Source: Saccoglossus kowalevskii
Taxonomy: Eukaryota > Hemichordata > Enteropneusta > Harrimaniidae
NCBI RefSeq assembly: GCF_000003605.2
Contig: NW_003124900.1
Coordinates: 47,605-71,470, forward strand
DNA: 23,866 nt
Reading direction: 5' to 3'
Position 1 is the first letter of the stretch. Each line of letters opens with the position of its first letter. The notes beneath the pieces were generated by a model that was given only the letters and a program-made list of their open reading frames with translations, did not search any database and had not been told where the DNA came from. This document shows, piece after piece, positions 11,601-23,304 of this stretch. The position numbers were made by a program, and so were the translations under genes.

Positions 11601-14600
11601 TGACAAAGAGAAATTATTATAGACAAATTTACTTTGAAAATATACAAAGTTAGGTGGTCTTCATGGCACCTTAACTAACACTAATTTATACTATGATTTC
11701 AGTTATCCATACATTGATTTCTATTGTAGATTCCCAAAAGCAATACTCTCCTCCATCATCAAATGACCCAAGATATGCACAAGTTCAGAGGTCACAGAAG
11801 AGAGCAACTCCAACCCCACCACCGCCTCCGGAGTTTGGTGGCATGGCAACCTATTCACCGAGAAACAGCCAGGACTCGGGGTCCTTGAATAGCAACCCTT
11901 GTATTAGTGAGCATGATGAAAGTATCGTACCATTGGAATCTGACGCACCAACACTGCCGATGCGAGGTTATGTTAGGTGAGTTTGATGATTCTTTTAATA
12001 AAACGTTTTTCATAACACGTAAATTTATTTAAATGAGGACGATGCCTTCAAAATTACAATGATTTTATAACCAATCATACTATACAATACTTTATTTTAG
12101 CTGGAATTAATTAATTTGTATGGAATTTATTTTCACTGATTGTTGATGAGTTAAATGTGAAATATAGGAAAAAACATGTATTCGCTGGATTTTACTTTCA
12201 TTTTTAGCGAAAGTAGCGAAAATAAATTCCAAGCGAAAATAAAGTATTCTACAGTAGTTCAATAAAATGCAATCAAGCACACTACTAATCATGCTGAAAC
12301 ATTGTTTGTTGTTTGTTTTTTCTCCAGTGATCTAGAAATGTATTCTGACATGACTGGGTCGAGGACTTCGCTCAACTCAAGGTCATCAGTTTCAGACAAA
12401 ATTCAGAGTTTTGGAAAAGCTGCCAAAAAACGTTTCCATTCTTTGAGACGCGCAGTTAGTTTGGACCGACTGGATAATAAGGGTCATAGGTCAGACCAGA
12501 TTTATGACACACCTAAGGTGAGATTTAATAATCTGCTATTTATTGTCCAGGGCACTCTTGTATGTGATACTGTGCCTATTTCATTGTCCCTGAACTTGCT
12601 TATTTGTTACATTTGCACAGAATATGCGCATGTGTTCTCGTGCCCCCAAAATGCATATACCGTATTACCCCGGGCACGCGCCCAGGGGCCTGAACGTACA
12701 AAATCGGGGAAAATTGGGGGTGGGCGCTTACCCGAGGACCACCCCAAAAAAGATTTTAAAAAGTTGTTTTTGTGATCGTATGATAAGGTCAAATAAAGGA
12801 ATGCTTTCGTACACTTTGTACACGTACTTATTTCTTGATTTATGCGAGGTTTCAATAAACGTGAGCACTCGGTCAAGATCTGTGGGAACACTAAGACACA
12901 GGGTCGAATTTCAAGAATAAAACTTGTTTTATGTCAGCGAATGAAGTTGTATTACTCACTGAAATTGACTACAAACTATGGTAAATATTGTTATCAATGC
13001 ACGGTTACATTTTTAGTAACCGTGATCAGTGCAAGTCGAAACGGCCGAGAAAAAACTACCGCTTGTAATCCAAGAAGGCGATGACCTAGTTAGCATAATT
13101 TTGTTCACGCACGTATTGATACATCGCATCGTAATTACTGAAGAATAGCAGACAGGGTTATGAAACAAATAAACCTTTTATTACTGATGTGAAATGTTTA
13201 CAAACTATTGTGAATACATAAACATATCCAAATGGCGATACATAAAAAACAGACTGAAAATAAACTCTGGTCGACCTCATTAACATGATTTATTCACGCA
13301 CCCACACACACACAAGACAAAATTATGATGCAACAAGTTCCCATCGTCGGCATGCCTCATTATGGTTATCGTAATGGACTTGAGGTCGGCAAAATGTGTT
13401 TTTCTCCAACGACAGAAAAATAATCCACATGACCGTAATGCCATAGCTGTGATGAGGGATGGAAAGAAAGTAGCAATGTCTCAAAAGTGCTAGCTCCCGT
13501 TCACAGTCAGCTGGCATCGGTGTCGCTGGGTGTATATAATAGAGGGAAGTTGTGCAACCAAATTTGCCGAGTTCGCAGTTTTTCGCCGATAAAAAAATAA
13601 CTAAGGCAAAAACTCACGGTTTTTCAGCATTTTTGTAATAAAGACATTATCCTCTATCAATAATCCGCCCCAAATAGAAACATTTCCACTAATTCTTGTG
13701 TTTTTTCGACGTTTTTTGAAAAACCTGCGATTAGGCTGCGAAAGTAGAACATTCCGGAGGGGGTGAAACGGAAGAGCCAAACTTAACGCGTAAAAATAGA
13801 ACGCGTATTTTGACCTCTACGTGGCCAACCAATGGCTGGACACGGATACGTTTTTGGTCGTTGCCAAAGAGCCTCGCGTCCATCGCCTGGCGATGCTCTT
13901 CCAATGAGTTTTTACGTAAAAACACAAACAAAACGGCCCTTTTCAGGGCCACCACACACTCCAAAAAGAGAACTACCGTAACAAACACACTGTTTAAATA
14001 AATCAAACGCGTTCGTTTTTGACAAATACAACTTTATTGTTGACCTAATTCTTGGCTAAAAATCACCCTGGGCGTTTAACCGAGGATGTCCCCAACATGT
14101 AACTTTTGTGAAAACAGGGGGGTGGGCGCTTGCCCAGGGAGGGGCGCGTGCCCGGGGTAATACGGTACATTCATTTGCCCCATTTGCATACATGTATATA
14201 TTATGTTATCTCCCAAACATTTATGTACATTCTAATGATGTAGCCCCAAACATGCATATGTATTTCATTGGCCCAGAATATGCATAATGTATTCTATTGG
14301 TCCCAAACATACATATACATTCTGTTAAGCCCAGAATATTCATATATGTATTCTATTGGCTCCAATGATGCATATATATATTTTTAATCGGCCCAAAATA
14401 TGCATATGTTTTCTATTCGGCCCAAAACATTCATGTACATTTCATTTGCCCAGAATATGCATATACACTCCATTGGCCCCAAACATGCATATGTATTCCA
14501 TTGGCTTAGAATATGCATAATGTATTCTATTGGCCCAAACATGCATTTACATTCCATTGGCCCAGAATATGCCTATGTTGTGGCATTTGCAATTATAGTT

Positions 14601-16124
14601 TTAACTTGAAATTGAATCACTATATGCCATTGTGGAATCGGTTCAAATACAGCGCTTTGTAGTCATAAGTTTTAAGAAAACATATAGGTCAAAGGTCAAT
14701 TGTGTACATTCCAACACATTGGATGACTTGTACCACACGACTCTGAAATATGTTAAAACAATTTGCATGCAAAATATGTATCATATTTTCAATAAATTTG
14801 TCATAATTTTTTCAGATGAAAAAGTCTCCATCTCTGAGATCGCTGACAAGTCGTATTGGTAGACGGAAAGAAAGTGATTATGACAGTTTTTATCAAAATG
14901 AACGAATGAAACAAGAGAAAAAGATGCAGCAGTAAGTTGTTTGTCTGTCCATCTGTCCATGTCTTATTCTTTAGCATTGATTTACCTGTATAGCATTATT
15001 TATCTGTGTTTGTGTCTGTCTATCCCTTCCTGAGAAGGTAACTCAGCTAACGAGGGAGATGCTGCATTTAGACATATTCTATAATTAGTGATCACAGTTA
15101 GTAAAACACTATCAATTTTAATTATAACAAGATGCCCCATAGTTTTGATGTTTGAAATATGTATTATTTCAGACATTTTTGCAACATGGTAAAATAAATA
15201 AAACAAAATTGTGACCTAGGCTGGTCAGTTGTAACCTCAAAAATGAGAAGTTAATACGCTCGTTCATGCATTTCTTGAAGTCTAAATTTCTTGATTGAGC
15301 ACGAATAGCCCTTGCATCATTCTGTGATTATAATCTGATTGGTCGTTAGATGTAACCTTTGACCTAGAGGGTAGTTTGGCACTTTATATTCATCACAAGC
15401 ATTTCCCATCCCGTCCCTCTGTTATTGCGCAATTGCTGTTTGTCTGTCCTATCATCAATAGTTTGTCTGTCTGTGTGTCTGCCTTTGTCTTTTTCGCGGT
15501 GTTGATTTACAACTATAGTTGTGTATCTATTTCAGAAGACCGGGGAGTGCACGTAGTGACAGGTCAATATCATCTAGAAAGAGTACAACATCATCAGTGA
15601 CATCACCAAATCATCTACGAAAAGTTGGGAGGATTTTGAAAAGTAACGTGGACGGAACTCTGATTATTGAGTTAGTCAAACCGCCAAGTGGCCCGTTTGG
15701 GTTCTATATTGCAAGGGGAAATGAAAAATTTGGTCGAGGTAAGTTATTATTGGTTAATATTCAGCGAAAGTTATTGTAGTGTTTGCTATTATAGAGTAAA
15801 GGTATATCCTGATAAATTCGGTCTGCTAATTTGTGATGCTCATATCTCGATACTACTGATACGCTGCCCTCTAGTGTCTGATAGGTGTTAATTTCTTGAC
15901 CAATGTCTGTGTTTCTTATTTCTTAAGGTATTTTCATATCTCGAATGAGTGATGGATATCCTGAAAAAATGTTTGCTGGATTAATGGGAATTGGAGACGA
16001 AATTCTAGAAATCAACGGTACTTCTCTTGTGAAGAAGACGCTTGATGATGTGTATGATGCGATGGCTGATCGGGATAGACTTGTCCTCAAAATCATGCCG
16101 TTGCTTTCGAGAAAGGACTGGTGA
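5515..16124 (+). CDS. Predicted scaffold protein with C-terminal PDZ domain (eight exons, 674 aa)
   Basis: This gene model joins 5515-5606, 7440-7601, 9352-10169, 11730-11976, 12328-12517, 14816-14931, 15536-15738 and 15928-16124. Every intron is GT...AG and the phases (2,2,1,2,0,2,1) match across every junction, which strongly supports the model. Residues 1-570 are polar and low in hydrophobic residues: a His-rich patch (127-137), an acidic patch (206-215), a Pro-rich TPTPPPPPEF tract (384-393) and a basic SFGKAAKKRFHSLRRAVSLD stretch (467-486). Six tyrosines sit in SH2-ligand-like contexts (238, 264, 294, 314, 373, 499). The PDZ domain covers about 573-668, with binding loop GPFGF (594-598) and GDEILEING (632-640). 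Its GIFISRM strand and spacing recall the PAR6-type PDZ. No kinase, SH3, GuK or membrane segment is seen, so I infer a cytoplasmic adaptor. A KIAA1614-like identity is a guess from memory of a C-terminal PDZ, not established. Confidence 0.85.
5607..7439 (+). other. Intron 1 of the PDZ gene
   Basis: The intron runs from GTAAGA to TTCTCTTGTCAG, phase 2. It is AT-rich and contains the foldback element at 6267-6654. It also has a 10-bp hairpin (CAAAGACACT / AGTGTCTTTG) near 7278-7310. No other coding segment is supportable. Confidence 0.6.
6267..6654. mobile_element. Foldback/MITE-like element of about 390 bp
   Basis: The 43-bp ends (6267-6309 and 6612-6654) are inverted copies at roughly 80% identity. 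They share GTTCTCACTGG, an AAACTC(G/A)ATCCGGATC core and a GAG end. Inverted similarity continues inwards: GCCGAAATC near 6332 and its complement GATTTCGGC near 6538. The two open frames inside, one on each strand, both read SIRIE because they lie on the two arms, so they are not genes. I see no clear target-site duplication and no transposase, so this is a non-autonomous DNA transposon of unknown superfamily. Confidence 0.7.
7440..7601 (+). CDS. PDZ gene exon 2 (residues 31-85)
   Basis: The exon follows a good polypyrimidine tract and CAG. It reads SGHTPNGSRQEALKILQKKR, a short charged segment that could form a helix, then a Gly/His/Asn-rich stretch, and ends at GTATGT (7602). The split codon AG+A restores Arg85 with exon 3. 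No domain is recognised. Confidence 0.8.
7602..9351 (+). other. Intron 2 of the PDZ gene
   Basis: The intron runs from GTATGT to TTTTTCCTGAATAG, phase 2. It is strongly AT-rich with no coding segment or clear repeat. A CCATGATGTCTGAAGTTC-containing stretch near 8992 loosely resembles sequence near 256, but too weakly to call a repeat. Confidence 0.6.
9352..10169 (+). CDS. PDZ gene exon 3 (residues 85-358), large polar exon
   Basis: This is the longest exon, open for all 818 bases. It encodes a Ser/Asn/Arg/His-rich, probably disordered region. Visible elements are a His cluster (NHHDNHHHSNH, 127-137), basic KPKPRRKTSKPK (192-203), acidic DYFDDDVFEQ (206-215) and four tyrosine motifs: YADM (238), YKET (264), YEEL (294), YTEV (314). 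Two of them are preceded by Asn-Pro. The donor is CAG|GTGAGT, phase 1. Codon content is clearly less AT-rich than the flanking introns, as expected for true coding sequence. Confidence 0.9.
10470..10870. repeat. Diverged repeats with ATGGCCG / CGGCCAT motifs
   Basis: Three related blocks are seen: AAGATGGCCGAATGGCGGCC at 10537, AAGATGGCCGACTAGTGGTC at 10717, and the decayed AAAATGGTCAACTACTGACA at 10840. An AGATCTTG...CATAT motif precedes the first two (about 10471 and 10613). The spacing (about 180, then 123) is uneven, so these are old, eroded tandem copies. The central motif is itself partly palindromic. Confidence 0.55.
11286..11302 (-). promoter_or_regulatory. CTCF-like motif
   Basis: Read on the minus strand this is TGCCACTAGAGGGCGCC, a near-ideal match to the vertebrate CTCF core (CCASYAGRKGGC plus flanks). 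CTCF is conserved through Bilateria with a similar motif. The same string can occur inside interspersed repeats, so occupancy is not implied. Confidence 0.4.
11730..11976 (+). CDS. PDZ gene exon 4 (residues 358-440), Pro-rich
   Basis: The exon begins DSQKQYSPPSSNDPRYAQV, contains TPTPPPPPEFGG (384-395) and ends before GTGAGT (11977) in phase 2. The poly-Pro tract is a possible SH3/EVH1/profilin ligand. Tyr373 (YAQV) is another SH2-ligand-like site. The 3' part is Ser/Asp/Glu-rich. Confidence 0.9.
11977..12327 (+). other. Intron 4 of the PDZ gene
   Basis: This is a short phase-2 intron, from GTGAGT to TTTTTTCTCCAG. Most of it is a nested inverted repeat (12087-12250). Confidence 0.75.
12087..12250. 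repeat. Nested inverted repeat (foldback)
   Basis: The left arm has AATACTTTATTTT, then GGAATTTATTTTC (12121-12133). The right arm has their complements in mirrored order: GAAAATAAATTCC (12218-12230), then AAAATAAAGTATT. The whole could fold on itself and resembles a small MITE. Internal TTAGCGAAAGTAGCGAAAAT is a short tandem of AGCGAAA. Confidence 0.6.
12328..12517 (+). CDS. PDZ gene exon 5 (residues 440-503), basic segment
   Basis: The exon reads SDLEMYSDMTGSRTSLNSRS, then SFGKAAKKRFHSLRRAVSLD, and ends QIYDTPK at GTGAGA (12518), phase 0. KKRFHSLRRAVSLDRL is an amphipathic basic stretch that could bind membrane phosphoinositides or 14-3-3 if Ser484 (R-x-x-S) is phosphorylated; that is inference. 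Tyr499 (YDTP) fits the pYxxP ligand of Crk/Abl-type SH2 domains. Confidence 0.9.
12616..12657 (+). repeat. Minisatellite, left remnant
   Basis: CAGAATATGCGCATGTGTTC and CCCCCAAAATGCATA are recognisable units of the array that resumes at 14168. The transposon has split a unit: AAAATGCATATA on the left continues as TACATTCATTTGCCCC on the right. Confidence 0.7.
13000..13024. repeat. 9-bp perfect hairpin inside the transposon
   Basis: CACGGTTAC (13000-13008) and GTAACCGTG (13016-13024) are exact complements around a 7-nt loop. It may be a protein-binding or structural site of the element. Nothing more can be said. Confidence 0.5.
13350..13510 (+). pseudogene. Frameshifted HIRAN-domain relic within the transposon
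   Basis: The frame 13395-13493 reads NNPHDRNAIAVMRDGKKVA (from 13419), which matches the signature N-P-x-D-x-N-A-I-A-V of HIRAN domains, then runs into TAG. A preceding frame supplies VGKMC (near 13385), like the VGExLxC that comes before this motif in family members. A following frame (13478 on) reads VSKVLAPV where family members read H-V/L-P-x-x-(L/I)-A-P. At least two frameshifts are therefore needed to read through, and the domain is dead. HIRAN is a DNA-end-binding fold (as in HLTF) and is also carried by animal transposon proteins. Confidence 0.6.
13935..13972 (+). promoter_or_regulatory. Histone-mRNA-type 3' stem-loop with purine-rich downstream element
   Basis: GGCCCT-TTTC-AGGGCC (13935-13950) is a 6-bp stem with a 4-nt loop, identical in form to the replication-dependent histone 3' stem-loop (GG-YYY-TTTC-type, loop UUUC). 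The 5' flank AACAAAAC and 3' flank ACCACACA also match. A purine-rich AAAAAGAGAA follows about 12 nt later, where the U7 snRNA-binding element lies in true histone genes. No histone coding sequence precedes it. A short frame (about 13803-13906, stop TGA at 13904) ends about 30 nt upstream, the usual stop-to-stem-loop distance, but its product is not a histone. Confidence 0.7.
14168..14590 (+). repeat. Minisatellite, about 30-bp unit, right block
   Basis: About 14 diverged units alternate between CCCAGAATATGCATAATGTA...TATTGG and CCCAAACATGCATATACATT...ATTGG types, suggesting a roughly 60-bp higher-order pair. Because 30 is a multiple of three, one frame stays open and gives a repeated decapeptide-like shadow. 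It has no coding support. Confidence 0.85.
14816..14931 (+). CDS. PDZ gene exon 6 (residues 504-542)
   Basis: After TTTTTTCAG the exon reads MKKSPSLRSLTSRIGRRKES, then an acidic/aromatic DYDSFYQNERMKQEKKMQ, and ends at GTAAGT (14932) in phase 2. It is basic and Ser-rich, with another possible helix at the end. Its internal ATG at 14816 is not needed as a start. Confidence 0.9.
14932..15535 (+). other. Intron 6 of the PDZ gene
   Basis: The intron runs from GTAAGT to TGTGTATCTATTTCAG, phase 2. It is unremarkable, with a (T)CTGTCTGT-rich pyrimidine stretch near 15437-15482. Confidence 0.7.
15536..15738 (+). CDS. PDZ gene exon 7 (residues 542-610), first half of the PDZ domain
   Basis: A Ser/Arg-rich linker (RPGSARSDRSISSRKSTTSS) leads into RKVGRILKSNVDGTLIIELV, then KPPSGPFGFYIARGNEKFGR, which supplies PDZ strands A and B and the carboxylate-binding loop (P-F-G-F, 595-598). 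The exon ends one base into Gly610 at GTAAGT. An intron inside a PDZ domain just before the GIFI strand is common in the family. Confidence 0.95.
15739..15927 (+). other. Intron 7 of the PDZ gene
   Basis: The intron is 189 bases, from GTAAGT to TTTCTTATTTCTTAAG, phase 1. It contains a second CTCF-like motif (15863-15881). Confidence 0.85.
15863..15881 (-). promoter_or_regulatory. Second CTCF-like motif
   Basis: On the minus strand this reads TCAGACACTAGAGGGCAGC, fitting the CTCF core CACTAGAGGGCAG. It has the same orientation as the motif at 11286. As before, binding is not shown. Confidence 0.35.
15928..16124 (+). CDS. PDZ gene exon 8 (residues 610-674), rest of the PDZ domain and stop
   Basis: The exon reads GIFISRMSDGYPEKMFAGLM, then GIGDEILEINGTSLVKKTLD, then a helix (DVYDAMADRD) and the last strand LVLKIMPLLSRKDW before TGA (16122-16124). 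This completes strands C-F and helix B of the PDZ fold. The residue at the start of helix B is near Thr647/Leu648 rather than His, which argues against a strict class I ligand preference. The protein ends about six residues after the domain. Confidence 0.95.
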
Positions 16125-16170
16125 TTGTAACCTCATCTCCACTGCAAACTGAGCCATAGTTTGTTTGTTT

Positions 16171-17580: not shown

Positions 17581-18759
17581 GTTTGTTCCCTTTTGATCAA
17601 TCTCACACATAACGCAGGGTTTCGGAGTGAACGAAAAACAGTTCAAAAAATCGTTACACAAGCTTACTTTCTAGAATTGCTATGCATATACATGTAAGTA
17701 CATTTGTCAAAGCGCTGGTCGTGTTCATCTTGACTGTTTTTACTATTGGCTTTGCTTATTCACAAAGTGTAAATTATGTACGAATCGTGTTTTTGAACAT
17801 TCACTGCATTCTGTAATGCCATTGGCTAGAGGGATTGGTTCTTTAGTTGCCATGCCAACAACTTCCCTGGCTGCTTTCTTACTGTATTGTATTGAGTTTT
17901 TTTTTTTTAAATGCAGGGTGTATTTAGCAATGTCCATTATATATCCATCCATATGCATATTTGCTGCCCATGTATATATATATATTTGATACCAGTTTTT
18001 ATTTTAAAATTTTATTTCATTTCATAAAGTTTATTCTATTTAGGTCAGTGGTTCCATGATGAATTTGGAATTGATAAAAATTAATATTTAGCTGTAAATT
18101 TCTTCAAAGGAATTTTTTCAGTTTTGCAATCAACTTCACAATGCAGTTGAATGAATATTGTTTGTCTTGTAAAAATAAACTACCCGTACTTGAAAAATCA
18201 TTTGCCAATCAATGCAACATTCGTTGTGATTGGATAACTAGTAAGCACTATGCATGTACTGCTTCTTGTGATTCGCTATCAGGTACAGCTAAACAAGGTG
18301 AACTTATCTACTGCCAGAAAATTCCCACCAAACACCAAATTTTACTGTAATTTCTAATTTATTAAAATTGGTACAAAATTAATCGGAATAGTGTTACAAA
18401 GTGATAATATTGTGGAATGTTTCCTTATGAGGCATTATCAGTGACAGTGACAGAGCTGCTTGAGCTGTCGTTTATCGATCAAGTTGATAAAGTTTGCCCC
18501 AAACCTTTCAATCCATATCTCAAACAACATCAGAGATCCTAGTAGCTACAAATAGTTACATTTATAGTCTGCTCTTGAGATGTTGCGAACAATTTTTAAA
18601 ATTTTTTGATCAAAAACTAGAAGCGATGTCATATTTTGTCTGTATGGTCCAAAATTAAGATTGAATTCAGTGAAAATTACAAAAAATTTGAACAATTTTA
18701 CCCAAATTCAAACTAGAAAAAAAAATTGCGCTTAAAGGGTTTAATAATATAGTTTGGCA

Positions 18760-19025: not shown

Positions 19026-20711
19026 TATATTTTGTTTCAAAAAAAATAAATATAAAAATATGTCCATTTTGTCCACAATTAAAAAAAAATTCCTCAAAAA
19101 ATGCATAAAAATGTTGCCCCTAACATTTTGGCGGGAAAAACTACTGTTTCAAAATTTGTTTTTAACTCCTGCCAACAATTTACAAATTATTCAATTCAAC
19201 ATTCCACTGATATTTTTATCAATTTCCTGACTATTGGTTGTGGTTGGACTACAATGTTGCAATGATATCACTTAAAGATTGCAGTTGCACGTTTGAGCAT
19301 AAACTTTAGAAATACATGTATAATTCTAAGGTCTATGATTGAAAGATCTGAATATTCTGCATATTAATTAGCTTCATTTGAATATTAATTAACTATTTAG
19401 CATATTCCACTTATATTTTATATAAAAAAATACAAAATCTTTAGCAGTAGTTGGGTGGGAGTGAGTTTACATAATAAATATGTTTCTTGATGTCCGGTGG
19501 CATTGATGTAGCCTGACTGAGCGCTTTTCCATAAACTATCATACCTCCCTCCCACATACACTTTCAGCTCACTACTAATATTGTGTAAACAGGGACAACA
19601 TTACATTCACAACTAATATGCTTTTAAAACTTTTATTCACCTTGAAAAGATAAAATATCATGATTGAAACATGACCTTAGATCAAAGTTCAGAGTTCATG
19701 AAACTTCTCATCCAATATGGCTGCCTGTTTTACTATCAAATATGTATGTATATATATAATTTCCAGCTGCATTGTTGACTCATTTTGGGGCTATTTGATA
19801 AGAATTTGTAAATTTATATTCTTCAGGCTGAATTGTATTTATTTAAAGGATACCAGTTAAGTTTTACACATTTTACTGTACAAATATACACATTCTTGAG
19901 ATGTCATATCTTTTTAAAAATGCTATAACATTGTGTGTCTTTTATTTATGTCAAATTATTAAACTGAAAATCTCTTATTGAGAGAAGGGTATGTTGAAAA
20001 TCTTAGAGGCTTGAAAAATGTGTGAGGAGGAAAATATTACATTTTATCTTACTATATTGTGATGTTTTTGTTTGTCACTAATTGACTGTGCTTCAGCGTA
20101 AGCATCAGTTTGAAATTTTGTGCTGTCTGGGGAAACCCTTTTTCAATGTTAGCTGAAGAGAGGTTGAATCCAATTTGTGCATAAATAGTCTGCAAACATT
20201 GCAGATGAAGACTGTTGTACAACATTCTGATCTACAATAAGATCCAAGTTTGGACTTTTTTTCCTATTTTCATTATTTTTTTTTTTTTTTTATACATTTT
20301 CTTTTACTTTATTTTTTTTAATTCATTATTCATTTGTTAGCATGTTTTAAAAAGTTTTGGTATTCAGAATGCCCAAATGTGGCAATAGTTAAAGTAATAA
20401 GACATACATAATAATCAAAAACAAAAAATATATACCCCGGTATTGTAAAAAATCATGCCCTACAATACATCATGTAACATGCAGATAACACACTTCGAGA
20501 GACACTCGTGTATGTTATTTACTGCATTCTTTTATTCCAAGTTCATACTATGGTAAGATATCAAAGATAAAATAAAACCTGTGTAGACAAAATATGTAAA
20601 CACATCAATAAATACATTTGACTCGATGAAGTGGCAATAATTATACAATTAATTATTGCAATAAATACAATAGACTGTCTAGCTCAGGGACCACATGTAC
20701 AGATTGATAGT

Positions 20712-20869
20712 TGCTTCTTTCGATTTAGTTAGTCTGTGAGTGTTTTATTATAATCGGTAGGGTTTTTTTTTCAGTTCTTCGTCAGGTTTCGCGTTCATGA
20801 CGAAGAATTGGAAAAAAACTATACCGATTATAATAAAACGCTCACAGACGAACTAAAGCGAAAGCAGCA
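20712..20869. repeat. Long near-perfect hairpin (about 72-bp arms, 13-nt loop)
   Basis: The left arm (20712-20784) and right arm (20798-20869) are complementary over almost their full length. Core matches are GTTTTATTATAATCGGTA with TACCGATTATAATAAAAC, and TTCTTCGTCA with TGACGAAGAA. The loop is GGTTTCGCGTTCA. A transcript from either strand would form a long double-stranded stem. The very short loop is unusual for a MITE and suits a hairpin RNA or a recent palindromic insertion. No miRNA identity is claimed. Confidence 0.8.
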
Positions 20870-23019
20870 GCTACAGAACTGCAGCTAACATTTTGGCATC
20901 AGGGAGATATAAATACATATTTGTCAGATAAATAGAAATTTATGATGGTGGCAAACATAGTGCATGATAAATAAAAGTATATTTATCTAAGAAATCTCAG
21001 AAATGCAATATTTAGAAATATACAAAATAGCTCACCCTGACTAGAACAACTCTAATTTGCGTGAAATACAATGCTCTCCTCAGCTTCAGGTCGCCATTCA
21101 CACAGCTCGAGCTCTATATGTCAAATACATGCAATTGCACACATTTTAGTAAATTATCAAAAAAAAATGTGTTTGACTGACAAAAAACTCATAAAAATGG
21201 GCATAGAATATATATCAAGAACTTTAGCAATGATATCCGAAAGGGATGTGACATTTAATATAAAGTAGAAGTACAATTCAGAAATGTCATAGACGATATG
21301 CATAAAGTTCAACACAAAATATAAAAATTTCGAAAATATTTTAAATAACAACTACAGTAACCTTAATTACAAAGATTAAACTTACCAGAAAAACCATCAA
21401 ATGGTTTTCAAGCTTGGCCAAAATTTACAAACGGAATCAAATTTCATATCACATGACCACAGCACAAAAAGAGCTTTCTTAAAATTACAAAATACACTGA
21501 AATAATACATTACACATCCTCTAAAGAAATTCACAACAATAATAACAAATTTACAATGAATTACAAAAGTAGAAATATGTTAATATATGCGCAGGTGACA
21601 ACCTTCCCGCTTTAATGTAAAAACTTCCCAGATAATGTTAGTGGGTCTTTACCATATCATCTATTTAGAATCACGTGAGCCTTTGTTTATATTTTAGACA
21701 CCTGGTGGCTGTTGGTCTTCTTTACCCAGTGAACACTGGTGAACAAATGGTCATATAATTATCCCCAAAAGCAGTACGGGCAACCAAAAACTGACACAGT
21801 GACACTTGCGTGGAATAATAAGATTGTTAATTTGCAAGCAAGATTCATTAAAGGGTGGTGGTCATCGTGCTGTGCATGTTCATTTTGCATTCAAACATCC
21901 GCTCTTAATATTTATACAAACTGCCTGGTAATGAGAACAAGAAGTTATGTGTACCTTGGCATCCAAACAACAAAGTCTCCACCAACTTCAGATCACAAAA
22001 TATGTTGTTGATGAAAAAAAAAAAACGTTTTGAAGGAGTTCAGAATACATTTTGGGTGTCCGCGGCTATTTGACAAATGTGTTCTACTATTTGTTCAGTA
22101 CAAGCTGTCCGCATGTTGTATGTCAAGCGCTTCAGCATCTGAATAACATTAAACTCTCATCCGATCTATGGACAACTGAATATTGCACACACAAAAATCG
22201 AAGCAAGGATGTAATTGGTGGTTTTCAAATAACATATAATGAATTACAACTCATCATATGTGAATACTGTGTCATTATTGGTCAATGCATGGTCACATGG
22301 GGTGATATAGAATTACGCACATGAACTTTTCCGAAAGTGTCACAATACGGAATACCAATGAGCAACTAATATTTGTTGTTATTATAAATCATTGTGAATG
22401 TAATTGTGTTGACCACTGTTGTAGTGAACGTAAAGTGTCTAAAGGGGTGTTTACTGGGTAACTTTCGGGATACCTTAATCTAGAAGTGGTGTATGTGTTG
22501 GACACAAACAGACTGATTTTATATAGGCAATATTATCCGTCCATTTCGCCTTTGAGTATATGTATAACACTACGGTAAAGACTTTCTCCGTCAACATTGT
22601 GAAATTCTTTCGTTTTTATGCAGAAAAATACAGTGTTTTACCAATTATATTATATTTATTAAAGTTGTTGTTCATACATGAGTTGTTAAACACACTACAT
22701 GCACATGCCTCCAAGTACCCTCGGCACACGGGTGTTCTTTCTTAAACTTTTTTTTATTTTGTTTTGTATATAATTTTTTTTTATTATTTCCAGTTCTATC
22801 TGTCTACAATCGACTTCGAAATAGTGAAGTTCCTGATTTTTCTTTTATACTAAGTACTAAGTGATTTTTTTATTTCATTTCTTGGACTGTTTTTTCGAGT
22901 TTAACATGTTTGTGTTCGTCTTTATTGTTATATGTTCTTCGTTAATAAATTCAAAGGTAAGTGTCAAATCGAAAGAATTGTTATTTATTCTATTATTTGG
23001 TTATTTCTTTGTCATGAAA

Positions 23020-23220: not shown

Positions 23221-23304
23221 ATGGATCATAATAATCATATGATGATGGACACAGGCACGGGCATGCCACCTACTGCAGGGGAGAATATGTCAATGACAAC
23301 GATG
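23221..23304 (+). CDS. SLC31A1: First coding exon of a CTR1-type high-affinity copper transporter (partial gene)
   Basis: The 28 codons read MDHNNHMMMDTGTGMPPTAG followed by ENMSMTTM, then a strong donor GTAAGA (23305), phase 0. CTR1 proteins import Cu(I) across the plasma membrane as trimers. Their extracellular N-terminus begins Met-Asp-His in animals (a Cu/Ni-binding ATCUN site) and carries His and Met clusters that collect copper. Here Met1-Asp2-His3, His6, Met7-9 and a MSMTTM cluster (23-28) fit this closely. The three membrane helices, with the MxxxM pore motif and the C-terminal HCH, would be in later exons outside the window. The assignment rests on the N-terminus only, so another SLC31 paralogue is possible. 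Confidence 0.75.

Follow-up and report, generated by a model that had tools for sequence, protein, structure and literature searches.

A histone-type 3' end behind the HIRAN gene of a DNA transposon in Saccoglossus kowalevskii, with the same cassette behind pogo-like and Tc1-like transposase genes

In metazoan replication-dependent histone genes, the stop codon lies shortly before a stem-loop (Rfam RF00032), and cleavage of the pre-mRNA normally falls in the ACCA 3' flank after the stem. A statement in one article (PMC2781718, 2009) calls this stem-loop unique to histone mRNAs, and we found no report of a histone stem-loop on transposons in the open-licence papers searched. The locus described here resembles the histone genes in its short gene, in a stop within the histone range of 24-36 nt before a stem-loop, in ACCA and in a downstream element. 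In contrast to histone genes, its gene encodes a HIRAN-domain protein and sits inside a mobile element. With non-autonomous transposons of the Tc1/mariner type, including pogo-like ones, the element shares TA duplications, inverted repeats and many copies, but it differs from them in that its cargo is a host-like gene whose 3' end is of the histone type. The protein belongs with the HIRAN proteins (Pfam PF08797), of which HLTF and Rad5 are members, by a domain match above the cut-off; unlike them, the transposon's version is a stand-alone domain of about 120 codons in which no helicase part was seen. To our knowledge, no gene ending of this kind was previously known for DNA transposons. If our interpretation is correct, we know of no earlier set of non-histone protein genes whose mRNAs end in the manner of replication-dependent histone mRNAs.

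The window, by which we mean the whole stretch of DNA analysed, comprises 23,866 nt of Saccoglossus kowalevskii (GCF_000003605.2, contig NW_003124900.1, positions 47,605-71,470, forward strand). An earlier note on this DNA had proposed a DNA transposon with inverted repeats at 12660-14165 that contains every visible part of a histone mRNA 3' end. Its account of the element and of the signal agrees with what we found, and the features are as follows.

12658-12659, no strand: TA target site duplication, left
12660-14165, plus strand: non-autonomous DNA transposon, about 1.5 kb long and present in many copies
12660-12683, plus strand: left terminal inverted repeat, CCGTATTACCCCGGGCACGCGCCC
13325-13493, plus strand: start of the HIRAN-domain gene (ATGATGCAACAA...), frameshifted in the window copy and open in copies such as L012
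13533-13539, plus strand: TATATAA, not conserved and outside the unit
13905-13907, plus strand: stop codon (TGA) of the HIRAN gene, preceded in the window copy by rearranged sequence in place of the original codons
13920-13934, plus strand: A-rich 5' flank, the beginning of the cassette common to host histone genes
13935-13950, plus strand: histone-type stem-loop GGCCCT-TTTC-AGGGCC (GGCCCTTTTCAGGGCC), from Rfam and the letters
13951-13956, plus strand: ACCACA 3' flank, the usual cut position in histone pre-mRNA
13963-13979, plus strand: histone downstream element AAAAAGAGAACTACCGT, matching host histone genes
13997-14002, plus strand: AATAAA, 46 nt past the stem, possibly a poly(A) signal
14142-14165, minus strand: right terminal inverted repeat
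14166-14167, no strand: TA target site duplication, right

The inverted-repeat arms, at 12649-12683 and 14142-14176, are 94% complementary. Among 20 copies fetched by DNA similarity, 19 showed element ends that read CCGTATTACC or GGTAATACGG with at most one letter changed, 31 ends in all. TA stands beside 29 of these 31 ends, the two exceptions being in L009 and L013, which fits a TA-duplicating transposon of the Tc1/mariner type. A DNA search of the host genome (572 Mb in 4830 contigs), in which 40 of 746 candidates were scored, gave at least 86 matching pieces of the element, and the inverted-repeat pattern matched 125 places at up to three mismatches, with none for the reversed control. Paired ends span 0.7-2.4 kb among the roughly 100 of these 125 places that were listed. 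The longest among the matches listed (C4122, 2.4 kb) was rejected as an autonomous copy: it is L072 and holds an inserted foreign repeat. As no DDE transposase gene was found in the window copy and none was seen in the copies read, the family is, as far as seen, non-autonomous. The copies read are mostly broken, and the window copy is broken and probably dead. A 28/56-bp minisatellite (CCCAGAATATGCATATGTATTCCATTGG) at 14243-14578 of the window lies near the element, which seems to sit in an intron of a PDZ-like gene, exons of a PDZ-like protein being visible by eye at 15540-16125. Further along the window are a long inverted repeat at 20708-20873 (62-nt arms, 89% complementary, 42 nt apart) and, by eye, the start of a CTR1-like copper transporter at 23221-23300.

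The stem-loop has exactly the letters that had been claimed for it, and its 6-bp stem and 4-nt loop fit the RF00032 consensus. The full Rfam model (RF00032, Histone3) matched 13930-13975 with 39.8 bits, above the gathering score of 34 (E 1.2e-8 in the window and 6.6e-8 in the whole genome), and folding of the strand at this place gave z = -4.0. The A-rich 5' flank and the ACCA 3' flank are both present around it. The purine-rich AAAAAGAGAACTACCGT, which the note had placed at U7 distance, begins 12 nt past the stem and occurs also in host H2A, H2B, H4 and H1 loci. It had been asked whether the same 16 nt might be abundant by chance; they have no second match in the window at up to three mismatches (shuffle mean 0.04), and the genome-wide E value of the Rfam match refutes a chance resemblance in an AT-rich genome, to which we assign a negligible probability. 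Instead of serving as a U7/SLBP site, the hairpin might act as DNA or in some other RNA step, for instance by binding transposase or by doing no more than stabilising the RNA. Some mobile elements indeed have hairpins near their ends, but this one lies more than 200 nt from the end of the element, 3' of the stop codon, and beyond the hairpin the whole histone context of A-rich flank, ACCA and downstream element is kept, so we regard such a role as very improbable. Each of the 26 aligned copies has AATAAA in the corresponding stretch past the stem, so transcripts may end there in poly(A), which counts against exclusively histone-type ends.

Upstream of the stem-loop, the note had seen a short non-histone frame stopping about 30 nt before the loop. 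Its TGA is 27 nt ahead of the stem, and since in other copies a HIRAN gene ends there, the frame in the window is the stump of that gene. In L019, L035 and L059, a frame with a VVKFQ end likewise stops 27 nt before the stem, and the frame end NIGFIVNEEKAERVRHML... is also found, with small changes, in L009, L010, L011, L012 and L013. Pfam PF08797 (HIRAN) matched L012 with 42.3 bits and L009 with 39.9 bits (cut-off 24.7), the domain beginning in both with the ATGATGCAACAA that stands at window position 13325; the match of copy L045 was below the cut-off (21.9 bits). At C1950:49899, a 126-codon open frame has a HIRAN match that, by coordinates alone, ends 13 nt before the stem-loop match. Judged from these copies, the intact element carried a small HIRAN-domain gene, apparently without introns. 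Across the host genome there are 71 HIRAN matches, which occur also outside this transposon family and a good part of which contain stops; HIRAN is probably a repeat-borne domain in this genome. Histone coding sequence is absent, as had been stated: when nine short histone motifs were sought in 20 copies, eight were missing and the ninth, KPAI, was found solely in a non-histone frame. A histone coding remnant inside the element is thereby rejected, and a HIRAN frame stands there instead. The TATATAA seen about 400 nt upstream of the loop is present at 13533-13539, but the compact histone-like layout that the note had built on it did not survive comparison. At the matching spot the motif occurs in none of 11 readable copies (15 other copies asked), and it lies 3' of the start codon of the HIRAN gene, within sequence missing from the compact copy L019. 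We therefore rejected this motif, present in the window copy alone, as a promoter.

Whether other copies keep the stem-loop was the check that the earlier note had named. Among the 20 copies that DNA similarity had retrieved, 17 contain the 3' module, and 15 of these 17 have the stem-loop, unchanged in 11 and altered in four (L005, L011, L012, L020). Loss, which together with neutral decay had been given as the outcome that would speak against a function, is limited to two of the 17 (L007 and L009, both deletions). Among 26 distinct copies, some of them found through the stem-loop, 20 have the exact 16 letters, four have changed and two have deleted stem-loops. Substitutions per cell in the young copies were 6/384 for the stem-loop, 15/468 for the downstream element and 104/3865 for the rest short of the terminal repeat, these being raw counts from a copy set partly found by the stem-loop itself. 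The stem thus changes slightly less than the rest, and the downstream element does not. Because the stem is nearly as variable as the rest, the young copies, taken alone, are compatible with neutral decay and prove nothing. Covariation of the stem was not counted, as the stems of host histone genes hardly vary either.

Three old relatives, L069, L070 and L051, retain recognisable gene ends and the cassette (37.8, 37.6 and 30.7 bits). The 16-nt stem-loop is unchanged in L069 and L070 and changed in L051, and young and old forms both retain the stem-loop and the downstream element. The three have repeated sequence in common, and L070 has, by eye, similar element ends. L069 has diverged from the young copies at 27.5 of 38.5 synonymous sites and at 14.5 of 135.5 nonsynonymous sites, in a comparison over the alignable codons of one old copy with gapped codons and non-aligning blocks dropped. 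By this comparison, the HIRAN gene was under purifying selection.

To see where else such stem-loops stand, we searched the genome with RF00032. With 75 of 50532 first-look candidates scored, at least 65 stem-loops were above the cut-off, 38 of them in three transposon kinds and 16 at histone genes. The 65 listed comprise 31 in the HIRAN element (29 young, 2 old), 16 histone, 4 pogo-like, 3 Tc1-like, 2 in a repeat family X, 1 other and 8 left unassigned. The 10 listed below the cut-off comprise 3 in the HIRAN element, 1 histone, 1 pogo-like, 1 in family X, 3 other and 1 left unassigned. Classes were assigned by coordinates, plus reading of the letters where available, and C1342 and C1272 are counted as HIRAN element. 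The same cassette of about 60 nt is present 3' of pogo-like (DDE_1) and Tc1/mariner-like (DDE_3) transposase genes. In the pogo-like L023 (DDE_1, E 4e-17) the stop is 31 nt ahead of the stem-loop, and in the Tc1-like L025 (DDE_3, E 4e-20) a 347-codon open frame stops 33 nt ahead of it; L024 and L044 are decayed copies. A sequence search with L025 against solved structures gave a best E of 0.02. Stop-to-stem distances, obtained for 18 of the 20 loci asked, were 24-36 nt in seven host histone genes, 27, 27 and 27 nt in HIRAN copies, 28 and 30 nt in old HIRAN copies, 27, 27 and 33 nt in Tc1-like genes and 31, 42 and 54 nt in pogo-like genes. The cassette was aligned for 24 chosen loci; the non-HIRAN loci compared, histone and transposon alike, have just 47-64 nt in common with the 3' module of the window.

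Relatives taken from protein searches extend these observations. For pogo-like relatives there were 31 match rows, and we read six tails from loci outside the stem-loop list. Five of them (L080, L081, L082, L083, L084) have the cassette by eye, partly decayed; Rfam found it in L080, L082 and L083 at E<=1 and missed it in L081 and L084. The sixth, L085, has no cassette and an AATAAA after the stop. It belongs to a pogo-like transposase end at C1946:18200-19015 (L085 = 18200-18600) with 40% identity to L023 and an acidic tail, which has no stem-loop. At a distance of about 0.4 kb the inverted repeat of the HIRAN element is present as a perfect copy; this transposase gene is a possible source of transposase for the family in the window. 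For distant Tc1-like relatives (54 match rows), seven tails were read: the cassette is visible by eye in two (L075, Rfam 23.8 bits, and L079, by eye alone), L076 and L077 are doubtful, and L073, L074 and L078 are without it. Overall, the cassette is frequent among the pogo-like tails read and of scattered occurrence among those of the Tc1-like relatives.

These distributions bear on how the element came by its 3' end. By accident, an ancestor may have acquired roughly 60 nt from the 3' end of a host histone gene, the copies carrying them since without function; the cassette is close to that of the host histone genes, the stem shows little added conservation in young copies, and most copies read are broken. 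Such passive carriage is nevertheless unlikely in our view, given that three unrelated transposon gene families have the cassette about as far 3' of their stop codons as histone genes do, and that it is still present in a relative in which some 70% of synonymous sites are different. Alternatively, a host cell-cycle HIRAN gene with a histone-type end could have been taken up whole, with no gain to the transposon; the 71 HIRAN matches are spread over many places in the genome, and selection in the host could account for the synonymous excess. We consider this distinctly unlikely: the same cassette is on pogo-like and Tc1-like transposase genes, the old relatives share repeated sequence and, in L070, similar element ends, and no HIRAN gene outside repeats was seen with a stem-loop among the 75 of 50532 candidates scored. 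The earlier note had left open whether the transposon captured the tail of a histone gene or uses histone-type processing for its own transcript. Own-transcript processing is the better supported at the level of the family, because the stem-loop ends a selected HIRAN gene and unrelated transposase genes end alike. Capture of a histone gene tail is a possible origin of the cassette, against which stand the mere 60 nt or so shared with histone genes and the absent histone motifs.

We next consider the processing machinery of the host. SLBP is encoded on C1837, where two neighbouring matches score 51.2 and 33.8 bits (cut-off 27), and the host H1, H2A, H2B and H4 genes carry the same cassette as the transposon. 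The H1 gene (L066:104-167) has one additional A between stem and ACC (GGGCCAACCACA). For U7, Rfam RF00066 gave 11 matches in the host genome, none over the cut-off. A pattern search gave a single match, L071, in which GUGUUAUUCUCUUUUAAUUUAUCUAG is followed by a short hairpin and a 9-nt pairing with AAAAGAGAA is possible; the letters of the downstream element considered for U7 pairing were AAAAGAGAACTACCGT. Because the pattern contained part of that pairing and, by a rough estimate, 0.5-1 matches could be due to chance (reversed control 0; Rfam 20 bits), L071 is only a candidate U7.

Together, these data suggest a transposon whose HIRAN gene probably uses replication-dependent histone 3'-end processing, and since this cassette also follows transposase genes of the pogo-like and Tc1/mariner-like kinds, the strategy looks like a recurrent one. 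The sequences establish the cassette, its place 3' of stop codons, its retention by old relatives, past purifying selection on the HIRAN gene, and the presence of SLBP in the genome. In the proposed mechanism, the HIRAN message would be laid out as a replication-dependent histone mRNA, with the stop, about 27 nt, the stem-loop, ACCA and the downstream element in this order. Host SLBP and U7 machinery would cut the transcript past the stem-loop, and the cut transcript, lacking a poly(A) tail, would undergo export and translation chiefly during S phase. Transposition proteins would then be made during DNA replication, when a cut-and-paste element can gain copies, and the element would benefit. 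A cut-and-paste transposon can gain a copy when it leaves DNA that has been replicated and inserts where replication is still to come, and the HIRAN domain, as in HLTF, binds the 3' ends of DNA at forks; S-phase timing would thus suit both gene kinds. That unrelated transposon genes end alike suggests that their expression is tied to DNA replication. Going by sequence, we lean slightly towards the wider proposal that, in several unrelated DNA transposon lineages of this animal, transposase and accessory genes are SLBP/U7-processed, non-polyadenylated and S-phase-limited, with transposition timed to replication. If true, the supply of transposase would be coupled directly, at the molecular level, to DNA replication. 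The histone-only rule would fall with non-histone genes in which selection maintains the complete signal, and such genes would be natural tests of what the 3' end alone confers, such as S-phase timing and export without poly(A). Speculatively, a histone-type end may also help messages to evade polyadenylation-dependent surveillance.

Several further stem-loops stand apart from these families. Repeat family X (L048, L052, L068) has the cassette 3' of a short frame ending ...AGEAHQALAVEKLRQFLKQSRKRV, and Pfam matched none of six frames from family X and L053. Histone-type stem-loops with no histone gene recognised upstream are present at L053:4985-5048, L029:1492-1555 and L054:5002-5065, and the viral contigs scanned for the cassette gave no match. 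Lastly, at C2222:752000-752623 (L083 = 752000-752130), a 502-codon pogo-like open frame with 29% identity to L023 is followed by a histone-type stem-loop and downstream element, and may represent an intact or domesticated transposase.
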